DNA of 41,599 nt from positions 1 to 41,599 of the forward strand of contig JAHDFM010000027.1 of NCBI GenBank assembly GCA_020628165.1. The letters run 5' to 3'. This stretch comes from Bdellovibrionales bacterium (GTDB lineage Bacteria; Bdellovibrionota; Bdellovibrionia; Bdellovibrionales; UBA1609). The stretch's first letter is position 1, and each line of letters begins with the position of its first letter. The notes under the pieces were generated by a model. The model was not told where the DNA came from. It saw nothing but the letters and a program-made list of their open reading frames with translations, and searched no databases. Made by a program: the position numbers and the translations under genes. This document shows, one piece after another, positions 838-20,558 of the stretch.

Positions 838-1647
838 TTGATTATCTTTGAGTTCAAATCATATAAGGCTTACCTGACACAACATTTAGGATCAATAGGC
901 AGGAGAAAAGGCCTAAAATCTGCATTAGCTAAAGCAATCAACTGCCAACCTACATATATCTCTCAAATATTAAATGGAAACGCCCATATGAGTCTCGAAC
1001 AAGCAGAGGCAACAAATAGTTTTTTAAATCACTCTAAAGATGAATCTCATTTCTTCATGCTACTCGTTCAACACGAAAAAGCTGGAACTAAACCATTAAA
1101 AGAATACTTCTATGGCCAAATCCAGTCTTGCCTTAATGATAGGATGGTACTTACAAAAAGAGTTGGAAAAGCAAAAACTTTATCAAAGGTGGATCAAGCT
1201 GAGTACTATAGTTCGTGGACCTATGCTGCAATTCATGTAGCAACTACAATACCGGAACTTAATAACCCGATTAAAATAGCTGATTTTTTTAACTTGAATA
1301 TTAACATTGTAAATAAAGTATTAAATTTTTTAGAAAATAAAGAGCTTATCTCCAAAGACAAAAGTGGACTTTATGAAAGTGGTGATGTTTCTATAAGGCT
1401 TGGTAATAATTCTTATAATATAACTAAACATCATACTAATTGGAGACTGTTCGCAATTGAAGCTTTAAAAAATGAAACAATTAATGATCTTCACTATTCT
1501 GGCGTTGTTAGCTTATCAAGAAACGATGCTTACAGGATAAAAGACAACTTATTAAAGTTCATTAAAAATAATATTCAGATCATTAAAGGCTCTAAAGAAG
1601 AGGAGCTTTTTTGCTTAAGTTTAGATTTTTTTAATATGAAAAAATAG
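838..1647 (+). CDS. TIGR02147-like regulator (helix-turn-helix plus winged domain)
   Basis: The 269-residue protein looks like the TIGR02147 / DUF4423 family, which is abundant in Bdellovibrio and Fibrobacter-type genomes. Residues 1-60 hold an N-terminal helix-turn-helix (YKAYLTQHL, then LAKAINCQPTYISQILNGNAHMS). The middle (FYSSWTYAAIHV-like region, about 120-180) holds a second winged-helix-like unit, IADFFNLNINIVNKVLNFLENKELI. The C-terminal 80 residues resemble the family's effector-like part. The start is TTG: AAGGAG at 826-831 is six bases upstream, ideal spacing, and no ATG competes. It is probably a transcriptional regulator. The target is unknown, but the divergent secreted-protein gene and its own promoter are candidates. 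Confidence 0.8.
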   Translation: MIIFEFKSYKAYLTQHLGSIGRRKGLKSALAKAINCQPTYISQILNGNAHMSLEQAEATNSFLNHSKDESHFFMLLVQHEKAGTKPLKEYFYGQIQSCLNDRMVLTKRVGKAKTLSKVDQAEYYSSWTYAAIHVATTIPELNNPIKIADFFNLNINIVNKVLNFLENKELISKDKSGLYESGDVSIRLGNNSYNITKHHTNWRLFAIEALKNETINDLHYSGVVSLSRNDAYRIKDNLLKFIKNNIQIIKGSKEEELFCLSLDFFNMKK

Positions 1648-1758
1648 CTCAAAACTAAATTTATATCACCAACTTTTCTAAAGCAGCAAAAATCTTCTAA
1701 GTTCAAAGATGAGCTTTCTTAAACCAATTTCCTCTGTTGCTCGCATCATTTATCAATT

Positions 1759-2118
1759 TTAATTAACAATATCTACATCACAAAAAAACCTATCAGCCGA
1801 CAAGTTTAAATTTACACTATCTGTTTTAGTATATCCATTTGAACCAACGATTGATTGACCATTTGTGAAATCAGAAATAGTCAGCATAAAATACTGAAAC
1901 CCGTCATCTCTTTGTTTTGACAAAAGAATATTACACTCAACTTCTGGATCATCACTAATTACAGATAGGTCTTGAAATTTATTAATATCAATATTTGCAA
2001 AAGTAATCTCGGAAACAACATCACCACCAAATTTAGTTAGAGTCATTTTCAAATTGATAGTTTCTGCAAAACAAACTGTTGAAAAAAACAAAATTGAACT
2101 TAAAACCAAAAGCTTCAT
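1759..2118 (-). CDS. small exported protein of unknown function
   Basis: This 119-residue protein starts with a Sec signal peptide (MKLLVLSSILFFSTVCFA, cleavage before ETINLK). The mature part is about 100 residues, mostly alternating polar and hydrophobic as in a beta-sandwich, with two cysteines (VECNIL and RFFCDV) that could form a disulfide in the periplasm. GGAG seven bases before the ATG supports the start. I do not recognise the family. It stands alone on the minus strand, convergent with the regulator upstream, and its promoter region contains two copies of a 16-bp palindrome (2201-2216 and 2329-2344). Confidence 0.7.
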   Translation of the reverse strand: MKLLVLSSILFFSTVCFAETINLKMTLTKFGGDVVSEITFANIDINKFQDLSVISDDPEVECNILLSKQRDDGFQYFMLTISDFTNGQSIVGSNGYTKTDSVNLNLSADRFFCDVDIVN

Positions 2119-2599: not shown

Positions 2600-3511
2600 T
2601 CAATTATTAAAATTGAAAAAAGATACTCCTAATCCAATTCGACGAGCATCATGGTCGTAACCGATCATAGACAATCCATATCCATAGCTTGCTTTTGCCA
2701 TAAATCTTAAACCTTTATTAATGGGATAAGTATATGTTAGCTCATAGCCTTGCCTACTTTCGCCAGGAACAAATCGAAAATGGATATCAGACTTTTTAAA
2801 GCTATGTATAATATCAATTTCACCATAACCTTTGTATTTATATATGTCAGAATTATCATCATCTGAAGACTTTTCAGGAAATCGATACCAAATTGTCATA
2901 CTAATTAATGTTTTATCAATATAAGTCACACCCCTTAAAAAAACTCTATCCCAACTTCTTGAAAGCTCTTGTATCTGTCCGTTGGATTGATGAACGTAAC
3001 CAAAGTCATAAGCCAATAAGTCGATGTCTAATCCAAATAAAGACATAGTATTTGCTCCTATGTTGCGCAAAAAAACCTCAGGCATATAATTAGTTTCTCT
3101 AAAAGGCTTGGACCAGTCCGAGTTATAAACTTGCCACCATGACTGGTGTGTATATGCCATTAAAAGATCATACTTGCCACCCAATTTCCTTACGATAGGA
3201 AAAGCAAAGCTTATTTGAAACTCTGCTTCAAGATTTTGATTAAACTGCCCTCTGTCAGAAAACTCTTCAAGAGATGTAATACTCTCATATGCTTTTCTAT
3301 TGGGGTCATTACTATACGACAATGGCAAAAGATATGTTCCTCGGTAAGGGATAAAACCATAATTTTTATCAAGTAATGATAAATATTCTCTTTTTATCTC
3401 TTCAAAGTATGGGCTATCTTTAGATACCGATGAAAGTGGAACTAACAATATAGACAATAAAAATAAAGATTTACTTTTTATAAATGAAACTAAATTAATT
3501 AATCTTTTCAT
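2600..3511 (-). CDS. pldA: outer-membrane phospholipase A (OMPLA)
   Basis: This 303-residue protein has the hallmark OMPLA segments. YTHQSWWQVYNSDWSKPFRETNY-type residues (about 120-142) match the family strand carrying the W..Y...S..FRETNY signature. YDFGYVHQSNG (168-178) contains the catalytic His174 and Ser176, and SRSW (184-187) follows at the usual distance. OMPLA is a 12-strand beta-barrel that hydrolyses phospholipids in the outer membrane as a calcium-dependent dimer. The third member of the E. coli triad, Asn156 (14 residues after the His), is Asp188 here. An N-terminal hydrophobic segment (about 14-30) serves as signal peptide. The gene begins 5 bp after the RND permease stop, so it is the last gene of the tolC-RND-pldA operon. 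The coupling with an efflux pump is unusual. Confidence 0.9.
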   Translation of the reverse strand: MKRLINLVSFIKSKSLFLLSILLVPLSSVSKDSPYFEEIKREYLSLLDKNYGFIPYRGTYLLPLSYSNDPNRKAYESITSLEEFSDRGQFNQNLEAEFQISFAFPIVRKLGGKYDLLMAYTHQSWWQVYNSDWSKPFRETNYMPEVFLRNIGANTMSLFGLDIDLLAYDFGYVHQSNGQIQELSRSWDRVFLRGVTYIDKTLISMTIWYRFPEKSSDDDNSDIYKYKGYGEIDIIHSFKKSDIHFRFVPGESRQGYELTYTYPINKGLRFMAKASYGYGLSMIGYDHDARRIGLGVSFFNFNN

Positions 3512-3516
3512 ACTAT

Positions 3517-6500
3517 TTATTCCTCTAATTTACCAACTTTCATAAATTTAATCTTTGACAATATACTCGATGCAGCCCCAGAAATATCTTCTAAAATACC
3601 ATAAGCACATGGCACCCAAACCAAGGTAAGAACTGTTCCCGTTGTTAGGCCCCAGGCCATAGCTAATGTCATTGGAATAAGAGTGGGGTCACTTCCCCCA
3701 ATTCCATATGCAGTAGGAAATAATCCACTAATAGTTGTTAATGAAGTTATTAAAACTGGACGAAAACGAACAACTGCTGCCATAGCAAGTACCTGGTTGA
3801 GGTCTTCATTATTTTCTTTTCGCAAGTCATCAATGTAGCTGATTAAAACAATACCGGCGTTAACTACAATCCCAGCTAAACCAATAACACCAATTAATGC
3901 TAAAAAACTCACCGGCCTGTCGTGAGCCCAAAATGAAACTGAAAAGCCCAATAACCCTAGAGGAATAGTTGTCAAAATAATGAAAGGTTTTAAAAAGCTA
4001 TTGAACATAAAGATTAAGAGGCCAAAAATACATAGTAAAGCAATGTTCATAGCACTTGCAAGGCTCTCAACTGACTCTGCTGAGCTTTCAGCTTCACCAA
4101 TAAGATTTAAAGACACTCCTTTAATATTTTCACGATGCTTTTCATAAGAAGCTTGAACTATTGCATTTACTTTTTCCGAAGTTATTTTTTCAACATCGAC
4201 ACTACCAACGATAGTTTTTGAGCGCTTATTATTATATCTCTTTATTTGAGGCGAACCTTTTTTCTTTTTAAATTTGGCAATCTTACCTAAACTTACAAGC
4301 TTACCTCTGCCATTAAGCACCTTTAACTCTTTAAGGTTATCAATATTACTTTTATATTTATCTAGAAATTGAACTTTTAAATCTACTTCTTTATTTTGAA
4401 TTGTAACTTCAGAGACAATAGCTCCGGCAATGCCAGAACGAATACTAGCTCCAATAATTTCAGCGCTAAGTCCAACACGATCTGCCGCTTCAAAATCAAT
4501 GAGTATTTCAATTTCATCTTCCCCGACCACATCATCAATTTTAAGGTCTAATACTCCGTCAACTTCAGACAGGTCTTTCATTACAAGCCCTATCATTTTA
4601 TCCATTGGTTCTTTTTTATTTGAACGAAACTTTGCTTGGATTGGGCTGCCAACAGGAGGGCCCTCTATTTTTTCTTCATATGATACCTTACTCAAATAAG
4701 ATGTATCAATAGCCCTTAACTTGCTAAGAACTTCGGTGTGTGGAATACTTAATTTAGTTTTATTGTTAACATATATTTTTAGAAGAGATAAGTTCGCACC
4801 ATCCCCAGCTTTAGGGTCATCCAAAGAACTTCTAGATTCGCCAGCAAGTGACGAAACGACTGAAACATATTCTTTAAGCTGGCCCCTTATATCATCTGCA
4901 AGCCTTTTAGCTAATAAATCAGTATTTTCAACTGTAGAGCCACCGGAAGCCTCAATGCGAGCAAAATAAACTTCCGTTTGTTCTGCTGGCGTAAGAATAA
5001 ATTTATTCATTTTTGTTAAAAAGAAAAAGCTTGTACCAAGAACTGCTATGAACATAATAAAAACAATATATCTTTTCTTAATACAAGCTTGCATGAATTT
5101 AAAAAAGACACCTTCAAACTTTTTGAAAAACCCTGCTTTTTCTTTCTTCGGCGTTGAACTTCCTTTGCTTACCATTTTAGTTAATCGCATCGGAAGAAGA
5201 AAAAAGCTTTCAGCTAGACTGATGATTAAGGCCGTAGTCACCACAATTGGAATACTGGAGATGAAAGCACCCATTATGCCCTTGGTGACCATCATAGGTA
5301 AGAATGCAGCAATAGTTGTAAGCGCTGATGCTGTAATGGGCCCCCAGAGCTCCTTAACTGCACTTGTAACAGCACTTTGAGGGTCCATCCCCTTAGTAAG
5401 ATTTCTTGAATAAGTTTCACTGATTACAACGCTGTTATCAACTAGCATTCCAATTGCTATAATAAGAGCAAGAACAGTTACTGAATCAAGGTTTAAATCA
5501 AAAAATGGCATTATCCCAAAGGTCGCCATAACTGCAAGTGGTAAAGATAAGCTTGCAGCTGATGCAATTTTACCAGGAAGGAATATAAATAAAAATATTA
5601 TGACTAAAAGTAGTCCTGTAATTGCATTGGATCCTAAAACTTCTATTTTATTACTTACTTCAATAGACTCATCCATTATTGTTTCGAATCTAATTTCTTG
5701 ATGTTCATTTTGTTTCTTAAATTCATCAATTTTTTCTTTAACTGAATTAACCATACCAATAGTGTCTTGCCCTGCCTTTTTAATAACAGTAAGAACTGTT
5801 GCTGGTTCTCCGTTAAAGCGTGCAAGTATATTCTTTTCCTCCTCACCATCAACAACAGTTGCAATGTCTGACAATAAAACTTTTTTACCATCAAAATTTG
5901 AACGGATCATAAAGTTTTCTAGTTCTTTAGCACTCTCAATTTTTCCTTCAACTCTTATTAGAGATTCTTCGCTGTTTGACCTTAATTTTCCACCAGGAAT
6001 ATTAACATTTCGGCCTCTAACTTTTGATATAACTTCCGAAACTGATACATACATTCCCTTCATTTTTTCGGCATCTAGAAGAATTGAAAACTCTCTCTCT
6101 CCGTAGCCAGACAGAGTCACCTTTTTCACTTGCTCGATATCTTCAATTTCTTCTTGGAGATCTTCTGCTGACAAGTCTCTTTGTCTTCTTGAGTTATCTC
6201 CTAAAAGAGCAATCTCTAAAACGGGCATCTCAGCAGAGTTTATTTCAAAAAATACAGGGTCACTTTCTAAGTCCACAGGCAACCCAGGGGTGCCGTCTAT
6301 CTTCTTTTGAATTTCATCCATAACCTCAGACACCACGTAGTTGTCCATATCAACTCGAATAGTAATTTTACTAAGGCCCGACATACTAACACTACTGATA
6401 TCTTTGATTCCTACAACTCTTTTGATCTCATCTTCAATAGGTTTAGTAATTTTATTTTCAATATCTTCAGCAGACGCACCACGGTACCCCGTTGTGATTG

Positions 6501-6639
6501 TTGCTGTTGCCATACTCACGGCTGGAAACTTTTCAGCATTCATGCTCTTCAGGCCTTGAAAACCAAAAATCATAAGGAACATAGAGATTGCAATTGTTAG
6601 TTTATAGTTTTGAACAAAAAATTTAACGATAAAACCCAT
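3517..6639 (-). CDS. RND-family efflux permease (AcrB/HAE1-like)
   Basis: At about 1,040 residues this has the usual RND length and layout: a first TM helix (NYKLTIAISMFLMIFGF), porter domain (KFPAVSMATATITTGYRGASAEDIE), TM2-6 around 330-490, second TM7 near 525, second porter domain, and TM8-12 to the end. It is an inner-membrane proton-driven exporter. The TM4 relay reads IGMLVDNSVVI, keeping the first Asp of the AcrB DD pair but Asn in place of the second. The TM10 segment GLAGIVVNAGIVLI lacks the AcrB-type Lys, a pattern seen in other RND subfamilies. I use the ATG at 6639 rather than the GTG at 6651, because GAGTGAGG lies six bases before it and it follows the tolC stop by one base. No adaptor gene is adjacent. 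Confidence 0.93.
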   Translation of the reverse strand: MGFIVKFFVQNYKLTIAISMFLMIFGFQGLKSMNAEKFPAVSMATATITTGYRGASAEDIENKITKPIEDEIKRVVGIKDISSVSMSGLSKITIRVDMDNYVVSEVMDEIQKKIDGTPGLPVDLESDPVFFEINSAEMPVLEIALLGDNSRRQRDLSAEDLQEEIEDIEQVKKVTLSGYGEREFSILLDAEKMKGMYVSVSEVISKVRGRNVNIPGGKLRSNSEESLIRVEGKIESAKELENFMIRSNFDGKKVLLSDIATVVDGEEEKNILARFNGEPATVLTVIKKAGQDTIGMVNSVKEKIDEFKKQNEHQEIRFETIMDESIEVSNKIEVLGSNAITGLLLVIIFLFIFLPGKIASAASLSLPLAVMATFGIMPFFDLNLDSVTVLALIIAIGMLVDNSVVISETYSRNLTKGMDPQSAVTSAVKELWGPITASALTTIAAFLPMMVTKGIMGAFISSIPIVVTTALIISLAESFFLLPMRLTKMVSKGSSTPKKEKAGFFKKFEGVFFKFMQACIKKRYIVFIMFIAVLGTSFFFLTKMNKFILTPAEQTEVYFARIEASGGSTVENTDLLAKRLADDIRGQLKEYVSVVSSLAGESRSSLDDPKAGDGANLSLLKIYVNNKTKLSIPHTEVLSKLRAIDTSYLSKVSYEEKIEGPPVGSPIQAKFRSNKKEPMDKMIGLVMKDLSEVDGVLDLKIDDVVGEDEIEILIDFEAADRVGLSAEIIGASIRSGIAGAIVSEVTIQNKEVDLKVQFLDKYKSNIDNLKELKVLNGRGKLVSLGKIAKFKKKKGSPQIKRYNNKRSKTIVGSVDVEKITSEKVNAIVQASYEKHRENIKGVSLNLIGEAESSAESVESLASAMNIALLCIFGLLIFMFNSFLKPFIILTTIPLGLLGFSVSFWAHDRPVSFLALIGVIGLAGIVVNAGIVLISYIDDLRKENNEDLNQVLAMAAVVRFRPVLITSLTTISGLFPTAYGIGGSDPTLIPMTLAMAWGLTTGTVLTLVWVPCAYGILEDISGAASSILSKIKFMKVGKLEE

Positions 6640-6640
6640 T

Positions 6641-8089
6641 TTAGACCTCACTCATTGGACAAGAAAATTCTGAAAAAACAGACAAATAATCAAATAGAAG
6701 ATGAATCATATCTCTTTTCGCATTAATTAGCTGGATTGCATTGGAAAGATACCTATCTTCCTCTTGAAGTAATTGAAATGAAGAAATCCTTGCCTGACCA
6801 TATTTTTTTCTCGCATTATTCAATACTTTTTTTAAATCATTGGAATTATTTGAACGACTTTTTACTATACTATTAACTAACTCAATGTTTTGTAAAAAAG
6901 TGATATGTAAGGCATTCATCCTTGCCTGGAGAGTTCTAGCCTCAGCTTCAAAATTCATTTTCTCAAGACTCAGTTGTTTTTTTTCTGTTACCCTCTTCTT
7001 TCCACCTAAGGGCATACTAATATTTAATCCTATAGTAGAAAAATTATTTTTTTGATCTTTCAAATTTCTATCAGCCTGATCAATTTTATTACCCGCACCA
7101 ACCAAACCAATTTGACCTTGAAGTTTTATATCGATATCTGAATATGTTGAAATTGTTTTAGTTCTAGCAGCAAGTTGTTTTTCCTTCAACTTCACTAGGT
7201 CATCAATCAAGGTATATCTTAAAGGTGTATCTTTTTCTTTTTCAATTAAACCGAGGCATGAATAAAATTTTTTTAAAGTCTCTTCACTATTATAGTTACC
7301 CAAAACAAATTCTTTATTTGACAGTTGCGGGAGCAATTCTCTAATGCCAAGTTCTGTTCTTTTCATAGCCCTTATAAATCCATTCATTTGAGCTTCTCTT
7401 TCATTCAACTGAGACTTAAATCGGGCTATATCAGAGGAGTCAGCTACATCATTTTTATATTTCTTTCTAGTTGTTCTCAGTTGCCTTTTTGAGGAATCTA
7501 ATAACTGACTAGCAAAATCTTTAGATTCTTTTGCTGCTACGTATGACCAAAATATTTTTCTAAAGTTAAGCCTTTGCTTCTTCATATTTATTTTGTTTTC
7601 GATTTGAGCAACCTCGTAACCAAGCTTGGCGTCTTTTATATGCGACTTAGAGTTGCGTCCCAAAAAATCTTTGAACAAATCAATACTTAATTCAGCAAAA
7701 TAAGTTCTCTTTTTTAAATCTCCAAATGATTTAATTCGACTAAACTCAGCTTCATGCCCTACACCAACACTAAAGCCATATTTTGTAGGTCTTGTAATAT
7801 CTATATTAAAAACCTTTGATGATGAGACTGGTGGAAAGCTTCCTACTACTTGAGTTTCATCAGATTTAAATACCCTACCATTTGCATTTAAAGTAAAATC
7901 GTACGCATCATTTGCTCTTAGCCTATTAAAGTCAGCAGCTTCTAATGAAGCACCAATAGATTGGCTCTGGGGAGAGTCTTTTGCAAGCTCTACAATTGAT
8001 TTTTCGGTTAAGGCGTATTCTTCAGCAGAAAGCAAACTAGCACTTAGTAGAGTTATGCATATTACTGAGCCTCTAAATAATTTTGTCAT
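6641..8089 (-). CDS. TolC-family outer-membrane efflux protein
   Basis: The 482-residue protein has a Sec signal peptide (cleavage after LLSA, near residue 22). The rest is rich in long amphipathic alpha-helices with two internally similar halves (about 130-250 and 330-470), as in the TolC/OEP fold, which forms a trimeric channel-tunnel through outer membrane and periplasm. The C-terminal LLQEEDRYLSNAIQLINAKRD segment matches the usual OEP helix with a repeated helical pattern. It is the first gene of the operon with the RND permease, one base upstream of that start, and is divergent from the TetR regulator, which probably controls it. Typical tripartite pumps also need a periplasmic adaptor, and none is encoded here. 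Confidence 0.88.
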   Translation of the reverse strand: MTKLFRGSVICITLLSASLLSAEEYALTEKSIVELAKDSPQSQSIGASLEAADFNRLRANDAYDFTLNANGRVFKSDETQVVGSFPPVSSSKVFNIDITRPTKYGFSVGVGHEAEFSRIKSFGDLKKRTYFAELSIDLFKDFLGRNSKSHIKDAKLGYEVAQIENKINMKKQRLNFRKIFWSYVAAKESKDFASQLLDSSKRQLRTTRKKYKNDVADSSDIARFKSQLNEREAQMNGFIRAMKRTELGIRELLPQLSNKEFVLGNYNSEETLKKFYSCLGLIEKEKDTPLRYTLIDDLVKLKEKQLAARTKTISTYSDIDIKLQGQIGLVGAGNKIDQADRNLKDQKNNFSTIGLNISMPLGGKKRVTEKKQLSLEKMNFEAEARTLQARMNALHITFLQNIELVNSIVKSRSNNSNDLKKVLNNARKKYGQARISSFQLLQEEDRYLSNAIQLINAKRDMIHLLFDYLSVFSEFSCPMSEV

Positions 8090-8124
8090 TTCTTATCTCC
8101 TAATATTAAAAAACTTGCATAAAA

Positions 8125-8140
8125 GTAAACAATTGATTAC
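8125..8140. promoter_or_regulatory. putative TetR operator 1
   Basis: GTAAACAATTGATTAC is a near-perfect palindrome in the divergent tolC/tetR spacer. It matches the core of operator 2 at 13 of 16 positions. A weak tetR promoter (TTGCAT at 8115-8120, 17 bp, TACATT at 8138-8143) would overlap it, so binding could autorepress. Confidence 0.6.
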
Positions 8141-8164
8141 ATTTAGATAGTGTCAAACATCTCT

Positions 8165-8186
8165 AAAGTAATCAAGCGATTACTTT
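8165..8186. promoter_or_regulatory. putative TetR operator 2
   Basis: Perfect 9-bp arms AAAGTAATC / GATTACTTT flank AAGC. The inner 16-mer GTAATCAAGCGATTAC shares 13 of 16 bases with operator 1. The centres are 43 bp apart, about four helical turns, so both would present the same face to a dimer pair. On the minus strand, TTGACA (revcomp of 8151-8156) lies between the two sites and may be the -35 of tolC; no good -10 was found. Confidence 0.6.
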
Positions 8187-8241
8187 AATACTGCGCCTTA
8201 GTGCAGCAAAAGTGTAAAAATAACATGGAGGATGATTAAAA

Positions 8242-8835
8242 ATGAGACAATATAACAGAGAAGATACTGAAAAAAGAACCATGAAGGCTGCTTTAAAGAT
8301 TTTTGCTAAAAAAGGGTACGAAAACACAACAACAAGGATGATTGCTGAAAAAGCTAAGATTAACCTTTCTCTTATTTCAAGGTATTTTGGAGGAAAAGAA
8401 GGTTTACTTAAGGCTATTATTGAGTCTGAACTACAACAGCTTTCAGCCGGTGGTCTAAACTATACTGCTCAAAAAGACCTTGCGAATGAAATAGAAAAAT
8501 ATTTTGATACGATTTTTTCAGAAATATACCAAAAGTTAGATGTTATAAAACTAATAACATCCCTTGGGATGAAAAACACAAAACATGCTGACATACTCAA
8601 TCAATTATTTCCACAACCTGAACCAAGGTTAGTTAAAAGGTTAAAAGAGTCCCATCCTTATCTGATAGAAAACAATTCCAATCCAGAAGACTTAAGCCAG
8701 TTTGTGCTTCTTTATATGGGTGGTGTATTTTTAAGAAAAGTTCTGCTTCTAAGAGCAAAGCAATCGGAACTTGAGGCTGACAAGGCCCTTCTAGTAAATA
8801 TACTACTTCAAATGAATTTTAAATCTCTTAAATGA
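8242..8835 (+). CDS. TetR-family transcriptional regulator
   Basis: This 197-residue protein has the TetR N-terminal DNA-binding domain: TMKAALKIFAKKGYENTTTRMIAEKAKINLSLISRYFGGKEGLLKAII-like sequence over residues 12-60, with the typical F..KGY..TT..IA..A......Y.F..K..L pattern. The rest is an all-helical ligand/dimer domain. TetR proteins usually repress neighbouring efflux genes until a ligand binds. The divergent arrangement and two palindromes in the spacer make the tolC-RND-pldA operon the obvious target. GGAGG at 8227-8231 lies upstream of the ATG with spacing of about 10. Confidence 0.9.
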   Translation: MRQYNREDTEKRTMKAALKIFAKKGYENTTTRMIAEKAKINLSLISRYFGGKEGLLKAIIESELQQLSAGGLNYTAQKDLANEIEKYFDTIFSEIYQKLDVIKLITSLGMKNTKHADILNQLFPQPEPRLVKRLKESHPYLIENNSNPEDLSQFVLLYMGGVFLRKVLLLRAKQSELEADKALLVNILLQMNFKSLK

Positions 8836-9045: not shown

Positions 9046-9836
9046 TTATTTAGTTAAATTTTTATACTCCACTGGGCTTTTCATGCCAAGTCCTGAGTGG
9101 GGCGCAACATTATTATAATCATGAACCCAGCCTGCCAACATTTTGATAACAATATCTGCATCCACACAGTCGTTAGTGTAAACGTAGTCTCTTTTTATGG
9201 TGTTTACAAAAGCTTCTGCCATACCATTTGATGTGGGCTATAGGCGGCTGTAAAACATGACTTAAGGTCCAGCTGACGACCAATTTTTATTGTTTCTTTA
9301 GATCTATAAATTAAACCACGGTCACTTAAATACTGTATTTGTCTTTCTGTTTTTAAAGTTTTGGGGAACCTGTGAGCCACTGACTGAACCGTGAGGTCTT
9401 GAATATTTCTAGCAGCTAGAGGATCTTTTGAAGCTACATAGCTTATACACTCGCGATCACAACAGTCTAAAGTAAAAGCCACATAGACTTTTTCACCATT
9501 AAAACAGTGTATTTCAAAACCGTCTGAACACCACCTTGTATTTGAGTGAAGTGTAATTATTTTTCCAGTTTTGTGATGCTCCCTCCTTGGGTTTTTGTGC
9601 TTAAGAGTTAACCCATTTATTTGCATAACACGCAAGACTCTCTTCTTACTATATACAGGAAGGCTGTTAGCCTTCCTGATACGATTAATAAGTGCTGTGA
9701 CTCGTTTATAGCCGTAAGACGGCCTATCTGCGAGTATCGCTTTTATTTCTTCTAGAACAATTGTGTCGGTCTTCTTCTTATAACGTTTCATTCTTACAAC
9801 TTTATTATAATAAATAGTACCTCTAGAGACGCCCAT
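9046..9836 (-). pseudogene. IS3 transposase orfB, frameshifted before the catalytic Glu
   Basis: The rve/DDE integrase core is readable: HTH_21-like start (MGVSRGTIYYNK), SYGYKRVTALI, the first Asp region (NTRWCSDGFEI), and the second (LSDRGLIYRS). At CFTAAYSPH the frame breaks. One base is missing near 9229, so the annotated frame ends QMVWQKLL and stops at 9204. Restoring one base gives SNGMAEAFVNTIKRDY and continues to a stop at 9046, which supplies the third catalytic residue Glu (GMAEAF). The loss therefore removes the DDE Glu and the C-terminus. The upstream frame (SIRKVCLLMGV) is joined to orfA by the frameshift site at 9869-9875, so the true protein would be OrfAB. Confidence 0.85.
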
Positions 9837-9859
9837 TAATAAACAAACCTTGCGAATAC

Positions 9860-10237
9860 TTATTTTTTCTTTTTTCGTTTGTTTGATGATTTGTTTGGTG
9901 TGGTGAACTTTTTTTTACGTTTTTCTTTGAGTAATATTTCTTTGGATATTTCGAGTATTCGCTTATCCACGGCAAGATCACTTACAGTATTTTTTAGAGC
10001 AGCAACTTCTTTTTTTAACTTTTCGTTTTCAGCTAAAATTTCCTCAATATCTACTACTTTTTTATCTTTTCTCATATCTTTTAACCCGCGCTTCCATGAA
10101 TAAATAGTTACCGGGTCAATACCATGTTTTCTGGCTAATTCTGAGCAGTTAATAAAGCCAGAGTCTAATTCAGATAATATTTTCTGCTTTAGAGCCTTTG
10201 AAAAATACCTTCTGCGCTGTATTTGATTTGATTCCAT
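9860..10237 (-). CDS. IS3 transposase orfA
   Basis: The 125-residue protein has a helix-turn-helix of the HTH_8/IS3 OrfA kind (FSKALKQKILSELDSG, ELARKHGIDPVTIYSWKRG) over residues 12-55. A leucine-zipper-like coiled coil follows (EILAENEKLKKEVAALKNTVSDLAVDK), used for multimerisation in IS3 transposases, then a Lys-rich tail. AGGAGG (revcomp of 10246-10251) eight bases before the ATG gives a strong start. OrfA binds the IS ends and, through frameshifting, is fused to OrfB. Confidence 0.9.
   Translation of the reverse strand: MESNQIQRRRYFSKALKQKILSELDSGFINCSELARKHGIDPVTIYSWKRGLKDMRKDKKVVDIEEILAENEKLKKEVAALKNTVSDLAVDKRILEISKEILLKEKRKKKFTTPNKSSNKRKKKK
9869..9875 (-). promoter_or_regulatory. programmed -1 frameshift heptamer A_AAA_AAG
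   Basis: In the orfA frame the sequence reads cgA AAA AAG, the canonical slippery heptamer of dnaX and IS3 elements. A -1 slip yields GAA AAA ATA AGT ATT CGC AAG (EKISIRK), which enters the orfB frame directly. This is the standard route to the OrfAB transposase. Confidence 0.8.
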
Positions 10238-10404: not shown

Positions 10405-10456
10405 AAAATACTTTTAAAAGATAAATAAAATTATTTCAGTTACTTAAAAGTATTTT
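10405..10456. repeat. 13-bp inverted repeat with 26-nt spacer
   Basis: Arms AAAATACTTTTAA (10405-10417) and TTAAAAGTATTTT (10444-10456) match perfectly. It is placed about 75 bp before the zinc-ribbon gene and may be an operator pair or hairpin of the conjugation remnant. Confidence 0.35.
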
Positions 10457-10494
10457 AATTTTTGGCCCATTTCTCGCACAGCTCTTTTGTCGAA

Positions 10495-10512
10495 TCGAAC
10501 AATTAAGTTCGA
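10495..10512. promoter_or_regulatory. operator-like inverted repeat TCGAAC-N6-GTTCGA
   Basis: Perfect 6-bp arms around AATTAA end about ten bases before the AAGGAG of the gene starting at 10531. The position in the leader suggests repressor binding, but this is inferred only from symmetry. Confidence 0.3.
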
Positions 10513-10530
10513 ACAACAAAAGGAGTTCTC

Positions 10531-10896
10531 ATGAACAACTACGAACACAAACACTCATACCTATCTGAATGTCCCCGCTGCGGAGAATGTGGCATTGAAC
10601 ATTTAATTTCCTACTCACACTGTTTAAATTGCGGATACAGCTATTACGGCTCACACGATAAATGTATAGAGCATAGTTACTTTGAAGCTATGGAGTTAGA
10701 GAAAGAACTGGATGAATTATTACTAGAAGAAGCTCTTAAGATGAAAAGAGTTTCAAATACTAAAGCGCTATTAAACGTTAGTAGAGCTATGGGGCATATC
10801 ACTTACATACTTCTTGGTGGTGATGAACAATCCCATTTTAACAATCAACGACTACAACAAGTTACACAATTACAGCCTTGGGGCAACTTTTACTAA
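10531..10896 (+). CDS. zinc-ribbon protein in conjugation remnant
   Basis: In this 121-residue protein the N-terminal part has CPRC (C14, C17), an extra C20, and CLNC (C31, C34), a classical zinc ribbon of two CxxC knuckles. The rest is predicted helical with an acidic stretch (ELEKELDELLLEEALK). AAGGAG lies before the ATG. The family is not recognised. It is followed by a frameshifted gene and a VirB2-like pilin on the same strand, so it was probably part of a conjugation or mobile-element operon. Function (DNA binding or regulation) is unknown. Confidence 0.6.
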   Translation: MNNYEHKHSYLSECPRCGECGIEHLISYSHCLNCGYSYYGSHDKCIEHSYFEAMELEKELDELLLEEALKMKRVSNTKALLNVSRAMGHITYILLGGDEQSHFNNQRLQQVTQLQPWGNFY

Positions 10897-10912
10897 TCTC
10901 TGGGAGGGATAA

Positions 10913-11294
10913 ATGAACTTATACTATTACGATCACTTACAGTTTGGCATCTACGAAGGTGCATATGAAAACAAACAACTTAACGAATTAGAACGCGTTG
11001 GCAACGCCATACTACTTGATAACAATCGCTACTATACGATTAGATTTAAAAATATTCCTAAAAAAAACATTTTACTTGGTTAGAAACAACAAACGCCCTG
11101 GAAAATACCTAATTTTTGAAAAAAAACTTGGAGCTTTTAAATTCGACTCCCTAGTAGGGAGAGGACAATTGAAAACTCATTTAAAAGAACATCTCGAAAT
11201 TACTTTACCTAAACAAGGTTTAAGAGCCTATATGAGTCTTTTTCCTGAAAATGCTCATCAAAATACTTATAACGGAGAAAATAATTATGAATAA
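10913..11294 (+). pseudogene. small gene disrupted by a frameshift in an A8 tract
   Basis: An ATG at 10913, preceded by GGGAGGG, opens a 56-codon frame (MNLYYYDHLQFGIYEGAYEN...) that ends at a TAG at 11081-11083. At A11060-A11067 the sequence has eight As. With seven, the reading would continue as KKTFYLVRNNKRPGKY and run to the TAA at 11292-11294, giving about 126 residues. The two halves (YTIRFKNIPKK and FYLVRNNKRPGKYLIFEK) join naturally as one protein, so an inserted A is the simplest explanation. A +1 programmed slip is possible but less likely. The 3' end overlaps the pilin start by 8 bases. No family recognised. Confidence 0.65.
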
Positions 11295-11568
11295 AAAGCA
11301 CTTAAAAACAATAATACTACTTATAACCATTGCACTCCTACCTACAGTTGGCTTTTGCAGTGTTGAATCAACACTTAGCGCAATTCAAAGCAAACTTACA
11401 TCAACCATATTGCCACTTGTAGCTATTCTAGGTTTAGTTTTTGCGGCCTTTTCATTCATCACTGGTAATGAAAATGCAAGGTCTCACCTTAAGCTTGCCA
11501 TATTCGGTGTTATTATTGGGTTTTCAGCACCTAGTATTATTGCCTTTTTACGTGGCCTTGTAAATTAA
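11287..11568 (+). CDS. VirB2/TrbC-like pilin
   Basis: The 93-residue protein starts at the ATG at 11287 (upstream GGAG at 11275-11278). It has a signal peptide (LKTIILLITIALLPTVGFC), then about 30 polar residues and two hydrophobic helices separated by a short polar loop, ILPLVAILGLVFAAFSFI and LKLAIFGVIIGFSAPSIIAFL, with GNENARSHLK between them. That is the topology of TrbC/VirB2 pilins of type IV secretion, which build the conjugative pilus. The TGNENA and FGVIIGF pattern supports the family. It overlaps the preceding gene by 8 bases and is followed by a truncated TraL/VirB3-like stub, so the system is a remnant. Confidence 0.7.
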   Translation: MNKKHLKTIILLITIALLPTVGFCSVESTLSAIQSKLTSTILPLVAILGLVFAAFSFITGNENARSHLKLAIFGVIIGFSAPSIIAFLRGLVN

Positions 11569-11579
11569 GAGGTTGAGAA

Positions 11580-11747
11580 ATGGCAATTAAAACAACACAT
11601 GTAAGTAAGTGCCTTGATAAAAAATTGCTAGTTATGGGATATGAAGTCCCCGACTTACTAGCAATCTTTTTACTTTTATCAGTACTCAACCTTACGATCG
11701 GACAGTTTGGAGTCAAGCAAGGGCAATTGTTTTATTTCAGGACTTAG
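11580..11747 (+). pseudogene. truncated TraL/VirB3-like inner-membrane protein
   Basis: A 55-codon frame (ATG at 11580, preceded by AAGAGGTTGAG) encodes a short N-terminus MAIKTTHVSKCLDKKLLVMG, then a hydrophobic segment YEVPDLLAIFLLLSVLNLTIG. This resembles the start of TraL/VirB3-type proteins, which sit next to the pilin in conjugative operons. The end (FGVKQGQLFYFRT) does not look like a natural C-terminus, and the following 170 bases hold only stop-rich fragments. I read it as a gene cut by the deletion that removed the rest of the transfer operon. Family assignment is tentative. Confidence 0.5.
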
Positions 11748-11975
11748 GTGAGTTATTCTTACACAGGACCAATGTCTACTTTTAAATAATAAATATATTT
11801 TATTTATTTAGTTTTATCAAGTTCTTACATTAATTTCAGTTGTTTACTGGTTTTTTCAAAAGTTAAAAAAGCTTGTCACACATCAAAATCTAATTCGTAC
11901 TAGAGGTAGAGTGAAAAATTGCAAACACAAATCAGCACAGCTCAGTCTCTTATTATAAAAAAATCAGGAGGATTT

Positions 11976-12920
11976 ATGTTAGGACGGAAGTTAAATCTCA
12001 TATTGTTAGCACTCATCATCGGACTCACCGGTTGTGAAAAAGAAGCTGAAGAAGAGCTGCTCAGCGATGGTAGTGGATCGCAAAACTTAAAAAATCTGTT
12101 ACAACTTACACTCAACGGCATTGAACCTGCCACAGGACAACATTACGAAGGGTGGCTAGTCACCGATGAAGAAACTCTTTCTACAGGACGTTTTAACTTA
12201 GACACTCTAGGAGCCGTCTTTGCCGTCGATTCGCTTGGCAACCGCGTTCAAGACATCGGAGACGTCAACGCAGCTAACTTTCAACTAAATACTTACAAAG
12301 GAAAAATCAGCTCCTTTATATTAACGATTGAGCCCAATGGTGACACAGACCTTGGACCAAGCTCTGTTCACTATGTTGCTGGAAACTTCAACGATGATGT
12401 TCTCGCCTTAGCAAAAACGGATCACGCTTCAGCTATTGGCACACGCTTTAATATCGCGTCTGGTGCCTACATACTGTCCACACCAACAAATGGTCCTAGC
12501 ACAAGCAACCAAGGGCTATGGTACTACGATGGCAATTTAGCCACCTTAGATCTACCTACGCTCAACACTGGATGGACATACCAAGGCTGGATCATTGACA
12601 ACAGCACCGGAGAAATGATCTCAACTGGGACCTTTCTTACGCCTGATGAAAGTGACAGCGATGGAGCTGGCGCCTCTGCTGGCCCAGACCCAGTGCCTCC
12701 TCACCCTGGTCAGGACTTCTTAAGCCCTCCCCGCATTTTAAATGATGGCAATCATGTCGCTGTTATTTCGGTTGAACCTTCGCCTGACTTTGACCCAGCA
12801 CCTTTTACACTTAAAATTCTATCTGGAGAAATCGAACTTGATGCTACGACTGAGTCTATTTACGGGATGGACACGACTAGCAACGATTCTACAATTTATA
12901 TTGAAGCTGTTTTAAAATAA
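11976..12920 (+). CDS. putative lipoprotein, repeat-containing
   Basis: The start at 11976 is chosen because AGGAGG lies just before it and because it leaves a clean lipoprotein signal (KLNLILLALIIGLTGC, lipobox LTGC). The longer frame starting at 11919 would bury the signal. After the lipidated Cys comes an acidic linker. The mature 290 residues contain two similar halves: HYEGWLVTDEETLSTGRFNLD (about 50-70) and TYQGWIIDNSTGEMISTGTFL (about 200-220). Each is followed by an SFILTIEPNGD- or VISVEPSPD-like stretch and a loop. This suggests a duplicated beta-sandwich domain similar to anti-sigma-factor-type lipoproteins. Function unknown. The base composition is richer in GC than the neighbouring remnant. 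Confidence 0.7.
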   Translation: MLGRKLNLILLALIIGLTGCEKEAEEELLSDGSGSQNLKNLLQLTLNGIEPATGQHYEGWLVTDEETLSTGRFNLDTLGAVFAVDSLGNRVQDIGDVNAANFQLNTYKGKISSFILTIEPNGDTDLGPSSVHYVAGNFNDDVLALAKTDHASAIGTRFNIASGAYILSTPTNGPSTSNQGLWYYDGNLATLDLPTLNTGWTYQGWIIDNSTGEMISTGTFLTPDESDSDGAGASAGPDPVPPHPGQDFLSPPRILNDGNHVAVISVEPSPDFDPAPFTLKILSGEIELDATTESIYGMDTTSNDSTIYIEAVLK

Positions 12921-13369
12921 ATGGTGTCAACTCCTGTTTCCATACCCTGCGCTCATCTACATTGCTGAACCTGGGAAACAGGGGTTGAACCGATAATTCT
13001 AAGAGTTATCAAATAACTCAATACTCAAATAATTAAAGTCATCCTTCTAAAATATATATTTAAACCTACACTTTCCTAAAATAGGATATGCAAGGCTCGC
13101 TATGAGAATTAAACTTACAATTCATCTACAAAACTATGTTACTACTGTGAATTTTTGTTATATTGTTTTGTAAATTTAATAAATATTGAACTTCATTTTT
13201 ACCCATTTATATAATTAAAACGGCAGCTTTAAAAAAACGTAGAGCAGACTTAATTCTAGTGTTTACGATATTTTGATTTAATTAAAGAAATAAAGTCAGA
13301 CAGAGTTCTAATAGCGGTAGTTTGCTAAAGGTGAACTCACTCATTGTAGAGCTTGTATCTTTGGTAAAG
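12921..13369. other. 450-bp intergenic region, contains a long inverted repeat
   Basis: No gene was found. It opens with a large inverted repeat that may terminate the lipoprotein gene. The rest is AT-rich with no clear promoter. The start of the permease gene to the right is uncertain, so its true leader is 400-500 bases. Confidence 0.5.
12927..12988. repeat. inverted repeat with 15-bp arms (possible terminator)
   Basis: Arms TCAACTCCTGTTTCC (12927-12941) and GGAAACAGGGGTTGA (12974-12988) match at 14 of 15 positions, with a 32-nt loop. No T-run follows, so this is more like a mobile or REP-type palindrome than a classical terminator. It lies directly after the lipoprotein stop. Confidence 0.5.
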
Positions 13370-17295: not shown

Positions 17296-18426
17296 TTATC
17301 TCTCTATTTTTTTTATAAACTCAAAAAGCCTTTCAAAACCAGCTGATAAATTATGACTTCCTAAGCCAACTCGAAAGTGATTTTTTATATCCGAAGCAAA
17401 ACATTCACCGGGTTCGAAACGCACCCCAGACGCTTCTAAAAATTGAGAGCAAAAGGTCGTTGCATCTACCGATAAGTTTAATTTAGGAAATAACAATAGG
17501 CCTGCATCAATGTCATTGAACTGCAACCATTCATCTTTTATCTGAGGCACAACACTGTCGTGAATATAGTTTAAATTGTTGCGGATGTGCATTTTGTGTT
17601 TATGTAACAACTCGTCTTTGTGCTCTAAAACTAAGTTGGCTATGAACTCGTCATAAAGACTACAACAAATCGAAAAATACCTTTTCACATTGAGCAACTT
17701 TTGAATCAAAGCTTGGTCTTTGCACACCACCCAACCAATTCTCAAAGAAGGGCAAGCAAATGTTTTAGACATGGACCCAACACTAATGCCTTTGTCGTAA
17801 ACATCACAAATTGCGGGAGATATCGCGCCAAATTCAAGGCCTCTAAAGACTTCATCGCAAATGACTGGAACTTTCATGCTTTCTAAAAACTGTTTCCAAA
17901 TTGAATGTTCAGGTATAAAGCCAGTTGGGTTGTGGGGGAAGTTCGTCACAACAAGAGACGCTTTATTAGCAATGACTTTATCTTTAAGTTCATCAAAGTT
18001 CAGTGACCACTTGTTCTCACTCATGGTGAGTTTTTGTTCAATGCAGTTAGCGCCAATTTTTTGTAACGACAAAGTCATAGGCGCATAGGACGGGCTTAAA
18101 CTAACTACTGCGTCGTTTTTATTTAATAAAGATAAGTACAAACACGACAAAGCCTCTTGAGCACCACAAAACAACACCACATTTTCGGCATTCACTGTTT
18201 CATAAAGCTGAGATATATTTGTGCGCAAGGACAGAGAGCCTTGCAAACTGCTATAACTCATTTTTTTTTCTAACAACTCAAAAGCTTTTTCTTCACCCGC
18301 TAAATTGAAAAGACCTTGCAAACTCCACAATGAGGAACTCGCTCCTCCCAAATGAGTGATCGTGTGTTTTGCTTTGAGCTTTTGCCACTCCCCTAAAAAA
18401 AAAGGTCGAGACCACGTAGAGTTCAT
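17296..18426 (-). CDS. ovoB: PLP-dependent aminotransferase-fold enzyme, probably OvoB (sulfoxide lyase)
   Basis: This 376-residue fold-type I PLP enzyme has NFPHNPTG (about 162-169, Asn166), CDEVFRG (Asp191, pyridine-nitrogen contact) and GSMSKTFACPSLRIGW (Lys221 as Schiff-base lysine). The ATG at 18426 overlaps the ovoA stop in the sequence ATGA, with AAGGA upstream. A TTG at 18444 is less likely. Class I aminotransferase-like enzymes next to OvoA act as the PLP sulfoxide lyase (OvoB) that cleaves 5-histidylcysteine sulfoxide to 4/5-mercaptohistidine, pyruvate and ammonia. Sequence alone cannot separate lyase from ordinary aminotransferase, so the OvoB name rests on the four-base overlap with ovoA. 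Confidence 0.7.
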   Translation of the reverse strand: MNSTWSRPFFLGEWQKLKAKHTITHLGGASSSLWSLQGLFNLAGEEKAFELLEKKMSYSSLQGSLSLRTNISQLYETVNAENVVLFCGAQEALSCLYLSLLNKNDAVVSLSPSYAPMTLSLQKIGANCIEQKLTMSENKWSLNFDELKDKVIANKASLVVTNFPHNPTGFIPEHSIWKQFLESMKVPVICDEVFRGLEFGAISPAICDVYDKGISVGSMSKTFACPSLRIGWVVCKDQALIQKLLNVKRYFSICCSLYDEFIANLVLEHKDELLHKHKMHIRNNLNYIHDSVVPQIKDEWLQFNDIDAGLLLFPKLNLSVDATTFCSQFLEASGVRFEPGECFASDIKNHFRVGLGSHNLSAGFERLFEFIKKIER

Positions 18427-20558
18427 AAATCCTTTTTTTCCCAAATAGTCATTTGCGCGACCGTGTGCTGAAACTTTCTTGCGGTTTCACGAATAACAAA
18501 CTCAACATCTTCAGTAGCAAGGAGTTTGAACTGTGAACTTAGCACTTCTTTTAAGCCCTGCAAGGTGAGCTGATTTTCACCATTCTTTTTATAACCACCC
18601 AGCCACTCATTTTTTGGCGTGTACTCTTCAAGCCAAGTGTAAGGAGAGGTCAATATCAAACGGCCACCACTATTTAATCGCTCATGGATACTTTCCAAAA
18701 AGAGCTTTGGTGAGTACAAACGATCAATCAAGTTGCCAGCAAAAATAAAATCGTAATCACTAAATTTATCATTCAAATTACAAGCATCTGATTGCATGAA
18801 GACGCACTTATGAGCCGTTTCTGCAAGACCTAATTGGTCCATATCAATCGTTTTCAATTGATGAATATCACCTTCAATGGGTATTTGATATTTTTTATTT
18901 CCAGTTTGTTGTAACTGTGATGCGTTTTGAATGAACCTTGCTGAAAAATCAATGGCATCTACATGATCAAAATGTTTTGCAAACTCAAAGGCTGATCTCC
19001 CAACAGCACATCCCAAATCTAAAGCCCTACTCGTATTATTAAAATATTTAGAAGAACGATCAACGCATGCTTTTGCGAAGTTCTTGACCTGAAAATGCTC
19101 ATCACCATAATGAAATTCTAAGTACTGATTGATCAACTCATCTTTTTCGTAAGGGTTGATAGCTTCCATTTTCACTTCCTTTTCTGACTCGATGTAACGC
19201 AAACCTGCATGTTGAAAAAAATGTCGACGAAAAGCATACCTGGAGTCTTTTAAGGCATAATTTCCCGTTGAAAAATAGCTCCCGCCCTTAATTAGGTTGT
19301 GCTTCTGATCGAATGTTGGCACTGAAAAGTCATCATAGTCTGGGTGGACCTCAAAACCATTGAATGGTGCTATTGGCGATTCCGTCCACTGCCAGACATT
19401 GCCGATCAAATCATACACACCACTCGAGCTTTTAAATTGATCAACGGGACAAGCTGAAGCCCAGTATTCCAAGTTAATATTCCCAGGAGCCTCTGGCCAG
19501 GTTGGCTGATCTAAATCCATAGAATTGCGCATCAACATCCACTCAGCTTCTGATGGCATACGTATTTTTTTGTTTTCTTTTTTTGACTTCCAATTACAAA
19601 ATGCCTTGGCCTCTAAATGATTAATATCGACTGGCCAATTCCAAGGCATTGGTATCTCTTCAGTGAGCGTTCGGTAGTAATAAGTTTCACCTTTATTCAC
19701 CCAAAAACAAGGTTTGTCAGCCTGTGTGTAGCTTTTCCAAGAGACCCCCTCGTCAGTCCAGTAACTATCATTTTGATAACCACCCTCTTGTATAAATTCA
19801 AAGTACTCTTGATTAGAAACAAGATACTGACTGGCCTTGAAAGAACTTACTGTGACTTTTTTGTGGCCGTACTCATTGTCCCAACCATAATAAGGATTGC
19901 TTTTCTCTTTGCCGAGAGCAACATCTCCCCCTGTAAAGCTCACCATGGCATTTTGAGGTGCCATCCCTTGATAAGGACACACTTTAAACATATCGACCGA
20001 TTTTACTTTTTCTAGGGGCAATTGCCTAATTAAGACTGAGCTGGTTTCAATGTGTATTCTTTGATGAGCAATGCCCATCATAACTATCCAAAAAGGATCG
20101 TTCCAAGTTATTGGTAAAGTGAGTGGTGCTGATAAGATCACCTCAGTGACAAGCTCTTTTACATTTTGACGATAATCTTTGATTGAGTTTAGGCTTGGCC
20201 AGTCGTAGTTGCCTTCATTAAGATCATCCCAAGACATTTCATCCACACCAATGGCACACATGGACTCAATTTTTTCGCTGAGTCGTTCATCAATGAGGCC
20301 AGCAATGAATAACTTGTTCACATAGAAAACTGCAGTGTGACCATAATAAAAGATAAGAGGATGCCTCAATGGACTCCCCTTACTTAGAAAAGAATTTTCA
20401 TCCGCAAGAGTTTCATACAGTTTTTCATCAAGAGCGAAAGTTTTTAAAAAGTAATTTAAAACCTCTTGGCGCTTTGACTCAACATCATCGCCCTGCAAAG
20501 ATGGCTCTTTGGTCACAAGCAATTGTTTTTCAGAAAAATGTGTACAAGCTAACTCCAT
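18423..20558 (-). CDS. ovoA: OvoA: 5-histidylcysteine sulfoxide synthase / mercaptohistidine N-methyltransferase
   Basis: The 711-residue three-domain protein matches OvoA. The N-terminal DinB_2-like part has YYGHTAVFY (His74) and GIAHQRIHIETSSVLIRQLP (His165, His169), forming the three-His non-heme iron site. The middle FGE-sulfatase domain runs about 205-450 (KKVTVSSFKASQYLVSNQEYF; SEAEWMLMRN; GNVWQWTESP; GGSYFSTGNYALKDSRYAFRRHF). The C-terminal SAM methyltransferase (about 470-711) has ALDLGCAVGRSAFEFAKHF. OvoA joins Cys to His with O2 to give 5-histidylcysteine sulfoxide, and the methyltransferase later methylates the imidazole to ovothiol A. Ovothiol is a redox-active thiol-histidine antioxidant. 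The start is the ATG at 20558 with GGAAA upstream. ovoB follows with a 4-base overlap. Confidence 0.93.
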   Translation of the reverse strand: MELACTHFSEKQLLVTKEPSLQGDDVESKRQEVLNYFLKTFALDEKLYETLADENSFLSKGSPLRHPLIFYYGHTAVFYVNKLFIAGLIDERLSEKIESMCAIGVDEMSWDDLNEGNYDWPSLNSIKDYRQNVKELVTEVILSAPLTLPITWNDPFWIVMMGIAHQRIHIETSSVLIRQLPLEKVKSVDMFKVCPYQGMAPQNAMVSFTGGDVALGKEKSNPYYGWDNEYGHKKVTVSSFKASQYLVSNQEYFEFIQEGGYQNDSYWTDEGVSWKSYTQADKPCFWVNKGETYYYRTLTEEIPMPWNWPVDINHLEAKAFCNWKSKKENKKIRMPSEAEWMLMRNSMDLDQPTWPEAPGNINLEYWASACPVDQFKSSSGVYDLIGNVWQWTESPIAPFNGFEVHPDYDDFSVPTFDQKHNLIKGGSYFSTGNYALKDSRYAFRRHFFQHAGLRYIESEKEVKMEAINPYEKDELINQYLEFHYGDEHFQVKNFAKACVDRSSKYFNNTSRALDLGCAVGRSAFEFAKHFDHVDAIDFSARFIQNASQLQQTGNKKYQIPIEGDIHQLKTIDMDQLGLAETAHKCVFMQSDACNLNDKFSDYDFIFAGNLIDRLYSPKLFLESIHERLNSGGRLILTSPYTWLEEYTPKNEWLGGYKKNGENQLTLQGLKEVLSSQFKLLATEDVEFVIRETARKFQHTVAQMTIWEKKDL

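Follow-up and report, generated by a model that had tools for sequence, protein, structure and literature searches.

An adaptor-less OEP–RND operon with a linked pldA gene in a Bdellovibrionales genome and its relatives among Bdellovibrionota

The reviews of RND pumps consulted treat the periplasmic adaptor as a standard part. The locus described here raises the question of how a TolC-family channel and an AcrB-fold permease would work together when no adaptor is encoded with them, and of what an outer-membrane phospholipase gene is doing at the end of the same operon. It lies in a stretch of 41,599 nucleotides from a Bdellovibrionales bacterium (contig JAHDFM010000027.1; hereafter the window), the draft genome of which comprises 3.19 Mb in 56 contigs and is 99% complete. 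No description of an adaptor-free RND operon of this kind was found in the literature searched, which covered few subscription journals.

Organization of the operon

Gene calls and Pfam matches bear out the packed tolC (OEP)–RND–pldA order, with gaps of 1 bp and 5 bp, that had been read from the sequence in a preliminary description of the locus. All three genes are on the minus strand, and a regulator gene diverges from them:

2600..3511, minus strand: PldA/OMPLA outer-membrane phospholipase A, 303 amino acids (PF02253, E 8.4e-69)
3517..6651, minus strand: RND permease of AcrB fold, 1044 amino acids, from GTG (alternative ATG at 6639; PF00873, E 2.2e-173)
6641..8089, minus strand: OEP/TolC-family outer-membrane channel, 482 amino acids, with signal peptide (PF02321, E 3.6e-21)
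8122..8143, no strand: second, imperfect palindrome copy, 82% identical to the first and 43 bp away from it
8164..8187, no strand: operator-like palindrome TAAAGTAATC-AAGC-GATTACTTTA, with perfect 10-bp arms (10+10)
8242..8835, plus strand: TetR-family regulator (PF00440, E 1.5e-14), divergent from the operon

The OEP stop codon is followed by the RND start after 1 bp if translation begins at ATG 6639, and the two genes overlap by 11 bp if it begins at GTG 6651; pldA lies 3′ of the RND gene after 5 bp. RND orthologues (BLAST score >600 bits to the window RND) were taken from genomes of the order, of the phylum and from named GTDB genomes, giving 72 distinct orthologous operons in Bdellovibrionota. 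Judged by its conservation, the tight OEP–RND packing exceeds chance, because the junction is kept in 62 of these 72 operons, where the OEP gene is directly upstream of the RND gene and the distance between them has a median of 2 bp. Both palindromes are contained in the 152-bp gap between the OEP and TetR genes. TetR-controlled operons are commonly laid out in this way, and the regulator would probably bind there; its matches to BetI- and PsrA-type models are weak. A scan for sigma-70 promoters and terminators returned sites not above the shuffled-sequence count.

Structure of the channel and the permease

The AlphaFold2 model of the OEP (pLDDT 88.8) matches TolC, OprM and CmeC structures with Z scores of 22–26 over about 390 residues, so that in family (PF02321) and fold it is a TolC-type outer-membrane factor such as tripartite RND pumps contain. 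The RND model (pLDDT 83.7) matches AcrB, AdeB and AcrD with Z scores of 45–48 over about 1000 residues; residues 8–1028 align to AcrB chains, and the porter and TolC-docking domains are both present. The same protein scores below every NCBIfam HAE1 and HME cut-off (351 of 940 bits for 2A0602, 486 of 1250 for RND_permease_2 and 296 of 701 for HME). At the proton-relay positions Asp407, Asp408, Lys940, Arg971 and Thr978 it carries Asp, Asn, Asn, Arg and Thr, respectively. An unusual relay was considered as a marker of the clade and rejected, as Asn at the Asp408 and Lys940 positions is also the majority state among 85 other RNDs.

Neither protein carries a visible substitute for an adaptor. Fusion of an adaptor to the OEP or the RND was rejected on the normal lengths of both proteins and their full-length structural matches to TolC and AcrB. 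Longer OEP helices were likewise rejected, with H3 and H7 comprising 71 and 68 residues against 69 and 69 in TolC. This counts against a bipartite pump: the OEP helices are no longer than those of TolC, and nothing visibly compensates for the length of the adaptor.

The clade OEPs have an extra β-hairpin in the outer-membrane barrel, which is real in the alignment and could mean a wider barrel. The first barrel half (residues 62–141 of the window OEP) comprises 82 residues, compared with a median of 54 and with 40 in TolC, and forms four strands in the model. No tie was found between this hairpin and the missing adaptor, as adaptor-linked OEPs span 32 to 106 residues in this region.

No recognisable adaptor in the genome or in the orthologous operons

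The preliminary description had noted the absence of a membrane-fusion protein and proposed that an adaptor be sought elsewhere in the genome. Neither the operon nor the flanks inspected encode one, and three profile searches of the whole genome were also negative: the one TIGR01730 match was the lipoyl domain of a biotin carrier, which at E 5e-4 missed the cut-off, PF16576 gave nothing significant (best E 0.15), and A3, a profile built from 20 RND adaptors, gave no matches. The genome contains five RND (ACR_tran) genes, four of which are directly 3′ of an OEP gene, and these four pairs have no adaptor between or beside the genes. The four RND genes besides that of the window, all adaptor-less, are (genome G000):

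C53:182881-185943, RND gene with no neighbouring OEP gene
C18:31611-34631, RND gene
C7:18629-21646, RND gene
C29:30750-33794, RND gene

By a home-made adaptor profile, no adaptor lies within four genes in any of the 72 orthologous operons; TetR is directly downstream in 45. The clade that bears them includes MAGs of Bacteriovoracaceae, Halobacteriovoraceae and Pseudobdellovibrionaceae, and the isolate Bacteriovorax sp. BSW11_IV. As a positive control, the same home-made profile found an adaptor nearby in 53 of 61 distant RND loci from many phyla (24–29% identity), several of the 8 others being cut by contig ends. By these gene neighbourhoods, the missing adaptor is a trait of the Bdellovibrionota clade. 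Many relatives, Bacteriovorax sp. BSW11_IV for example, do have adaptors elsewhere in the genome, which weighs against a bipartite pump; within the family, 39 of 47 genomes contain A3 matches, some of them short lipoyl-like fragments. Three genomes (G134, G135 and G121) gave no A3 match, and the genome with the closest relative of the window RND (G194) gave only lipoyl-like fragments of about 45 residues. In one Bdellovibrionales MAG (L151:2384-6893, plus strand) the RND gene precedes the OEP gene, still without an adaptor.

Within the adaptor-free operons, a sister subclade encodes two further proteins. Directly 3′ of the RND gene is an unannotated lipoprotein family with no Pfam match, members of which also adjoin RND genes in G099, G101 and G107. 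Directly before the OEP gene is a signal-peptide protein of 233–254 amino acids, β-barrel-like in appearance; the L115 member was tested and has no Pfam match.

L115: lipoprotein 7396-7995, minus strand; signal-peptide protein 12483-13217, minus strand
L116: lipoprotein 10408-10905, plus strand; signal-peptide protein 5045-5809, plus strand
L117: signal-peptide protein 5444-6145, plus strand
L118: lipoprotein 968-1948, minus strand
L119: lipoprotein 6224-7105, minus strand; signal-peptide protein 11702-12439, minus strand
L120: lipoprotein 10561-11517, plus strand

The lipoprotein is a possible surrogate third component in that subclade; as a surrogate adaptor in the window genome it was rejected, since it has no match there.

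We regard it as rather unlikely that an unrecognised third component bridges the window pair and makes the pump tripartite in practice. Such a component could be a periplasmic adaptor of unrelated or extremely diverged sequence, or a lipoprotein from another locus. Canonical RND pumps do require adaptors, and the lipoprotein of the sister subclade indicates that accessory periplasmic proteins exist in the family; however, the window genome has no match to this lipoprotein, the window subclade has no conserved extra gene, and the three adaptor profiles were negative.

PldA and the origin of the operon

The phospholipase aligns to OMPLA (1fw2, E 1.7e-32) and shares with the E. coli enzyme a full PLA1 domain, the HxSNG and SRSW motifs, and the catalytic His and Ser (His174 and Ser176, conserved within HxSNG). 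It differs in being encoded in an export operon and in having Asp188 at the position of Asn156 of the catalytic triad, an exchange that is common among PldA orthologues of the phylum.

PldA matches are present in 75 of 369 genomes in a phylum-wide search, and pldA is joined to the adaptor-less OEP–RND operon in only 2 of the 72 cases, the window and G231. The G231 locus (L269) reads OEP, RND, TetR, PLA1, with gaps of −22, −4 and 16 bp. The preliminary description had named as refuting that pldA be unlinked to RND genes in all related genomes; with this distant relative, it was not refuted on that point. The two RNDs fall in separate subclades of the RND tree and the nearest members of both have no adjoining pldA, among them the closest relatives of the window RND, G194 (64%) and G163 (59%); therefore, pldA joined OEP–RND operons at least twice. 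As a conserved third member of the operon pldA was rejected on this count, and on gene content it is an optional cargo, not a general part of the adaptor-free RND operon. The idea of pldA as a defining member, or of a dedicated lipid-remodelling system, found no support; of the proposed two-component export and lipid-remodelling system, the two-component export system is the best reading.

Elsewhere, pldA lies 3′ of an MFS exporter gene after 3 bp (L283:7282-9606) and closes an OEP–adaptor–ABC2–amidohydrolase operon (L284:357-8867). In total, 4 of 27 inspected PldA loci are exporter-linked (rough binomial p ~0.002-0.04 at assumed background rates of 2–5%), most orthologues adjoining unrelated genes, and a linkage beyond background is suggestive only.

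The RND tree bears on where the operon came from. In this tree, a FastTree run the notes of which warn of long branches, the window RND groups with high support with G194 and G163 of family f12, which holds Bacteriovorax. The own-genus orthologue is the C29 copy, which falls beside G110, a genome of the same genus. Insertion-sequence-like ORFs separate tetR from the remainder of the contig:

9204-10237, minus strand: two transposase ORFs of an IS3-like element, one PF01527 (HTH_Tnp_1), the other HTH_21 plus rve (PF00665), apparently truncated, 210 amino acids

Given these groupings and the adjoining transposase ORFs, the window operon looks like an extra copy, horizontally acquired from Bacteriovoracia-like donors.

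The same surroundings make a neutral hitch-hiker of pldA conceivable, placed by mobile insertion and with no functional connection to the pump, but we doubt that this is so. The adjacent transposase ORFs, the transfer indicated by the RND phylogeny and the rarity of the linkage agree with it; the shared strand, the 5-bp gap and the independent second case in L269 speak against it, as do, suggestively, the 4 exporter-linked loci.

Conserved motifs at the putative docking tips

If the channel and the permease meet directly, the helix turns of the former and the apical hairpins of the latter would be the places of contact:

5887..5904, minus strand: RND apical β1 docking hairpin R250-S-N-F-D-G255 (AcrB 252–257), clade motif RSNF[S/D]G
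6788..6796, minus strand: OEP H7/H8 tip motif Q432-A433-R434, clade motif Q[AGV]R
7430..7450, minus strand: OEP H3/H4 tip, DVADSSD (clade consensus ADxGEVAR)

The Q[AGV]R motif is present at the H7/H8 turn in 60 of 61 adaptor-less OEPs and in none of 31 adaptor-linked ones. The β1 hairpin is the most clade-specific block within the RND docking domain: R, S, N, F and G are conserved in 100%, 95%, 91%, 91% and 97% of 64 clade RNDs, against 8%, 5%, 9%, 2% and 53% at the same positions of 85 other RNDs. The membrane and porter domains contain blocks of equal or greater contrast, and the hairpin contrast alone is therefore no proof of a docking role.

Whether TolC and AcrB form a conduit by direct contact has long been disputed, with cross-links for and reconstituted complexes against. 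The top hairpins of AcrB (D256 in β1 and D795 in β2) adjoin two TolC helix turns (PMC4446572; PMC2292822), and cysteine cross-links between them form in vivo even without AcrA (reviewed in PMC4446572; D256 in β1, PMC2292822). The clade motifs of the OEP and the RND fall at these very positions. Pump function in E. coli nonetheless requires AcrA (PMC2292822), and in reconstituted complexes AcrA is inserted between TolC and AcrB (PMC4403515). For the window pair we infer direct docking as a bipartite pump; alternatively, the tip and hairpin motifs could be lineage markers that reflect shared descent within a monophyletic lineage.

It is improbable that the RND alone moves substrates from the inner membrane to the periplasm while the OEP serves as an independent pore, the two sharing an operon and forming no conduit. 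Such an arrangement would suit the loci with no neighbouring OEP gene (L123-L126, L128 and L129, a few of them near contig ends) and the partnerless C53 RND, but 62 of 72 pairs are adjacent, 2 bp apart at the median, and both tips show clade-specific conservation.

A proposed bipartite exporter with an accessory phospholipase

Its most likely function, as far as the genes and models tell, would be that of a TetR-controlled two-part exporter of amphiphilic compounds, with PldA as an optional outer-membrane clean-up enzyme. The proton-driven permease trimer would dock the channel trimer directly, its apical RSNF[S/D]G hairpin on the tips of the periplasmic helices (QAR), and amphiphilic substrates from the inner membrane or the periplasm would be discharged outside the cell. 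The divergent TetR would repress the operon until released by an amphiphilic inducer. PldA, an accessory cargo not needed for transport, would clear phospholipids mislocalised to the outer leaflet, as might arise when membrane-active compounds disturb the outer membrane or when a relative of predatory bacteria meets membrane fragments.

We give about even odds to the reading that a bipartite RND exporter which does without an adaptor is spread across Bdellovibrionota, that the locus is an additional copy of it, probably gained by horizontal transfer, and that PldA is accessory to it. Tentatively, and with a little less confidence, the phylum may hold a whole class of bipartite RND pumps, in which AcrB-like and TolC-like trimers meet tip to tip through co-evolved RSNF[S/D]G and Q[AGV]R motifs and pldA counts among several envelope-repair cargos that are optional. 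A dedicated lipid export or remodelling system, in which phospholipids or fatty acids that PldA helps to produce or sense leave through the pump, is very unlikely: pldA did join OEP–RND operons of different subclades twice and lies 3′ of MFS and ABC exporters in two other loci, and the TetR weakly resembles BetI- and PsrA-type models, but 70 of 72 orthologous operons and the nearest RND relatives have no pldA, and most PldA orthologues are beside unrelated genes.

Relation to known systems

With AcrAB-TolC and MexAB-OprM the window pump shares the whole-length permease fold (Z 45–48), the channel fold (Z ~25), TetR control and the equivalents of Asp407, Arg971 and Thr978; it differs in having no adaptor in operon or genome, Asn at the Asp408 and Lys940 positions, other docking-tip motifs and a sub-cut-off HAE-1 score. 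On present sequence comparisons we do not class it as a tripartite HAE-1 pump, although it is HAE-1-like, because the adaptor, a defining feature, was sought in the operon, the genome and the 72 orthologous operons and is missing. The nearest known reduction is BesABC of Borrelia burgdorferi, in which the BesA adaptor is devoid of an α-hairpin, implying contact between channel and transporter (PMC3807786); in the window genome no adaptor was found at all. CusCBA and other HME-RND pumps share the ACR_tran permease and the OEP partner but need a CusB-type adaptor, and the window RND falls far short of the HME cut-off. HpnN/MmpL-type proteins are RND superfamily members that work outside the classical trio of permease, adaptor and OEP; the window RND, by contrast, resembles AcrB over 1000 residues, contains a TolC-docking domain and is paired with an OEP of its own.

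The question of direct contact can be put to the test in a lineage whose several RND pumps come naturally with no adaptor; this would show what adaptors are needed for, and an adaptor-free pair would give structural work its simplest RND pump. The twice-repeated pldA linkage hints at a coupling of outer-membrane phospholipid clean-up to efflux.

Other features of the window

Four further features of the window were recorded:

838-1647, plus strand: DUF4423 protein (PF14394), close to where the operon ends with pldA; its N-terminal region resembles a helix-turn-helix
11251-11568, plus strand: TrbC/VirB2-type pilin ORF (PF04956, E 1.8e-7), with no other type IV secretion gene among the ORFs inspected
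17296-20558, minus strand: fusion of FGE-sulfatase and methyltransferase domains (711 amino acids) adjoining an aminotransferase-fold protein, presumably an OvoA/OvoB-type ovothiol pathway
34564-37880, minus strand: DUF1588/1592-type cytochrome-like protein adjoining a DUF1552 (HXXSHH) protein
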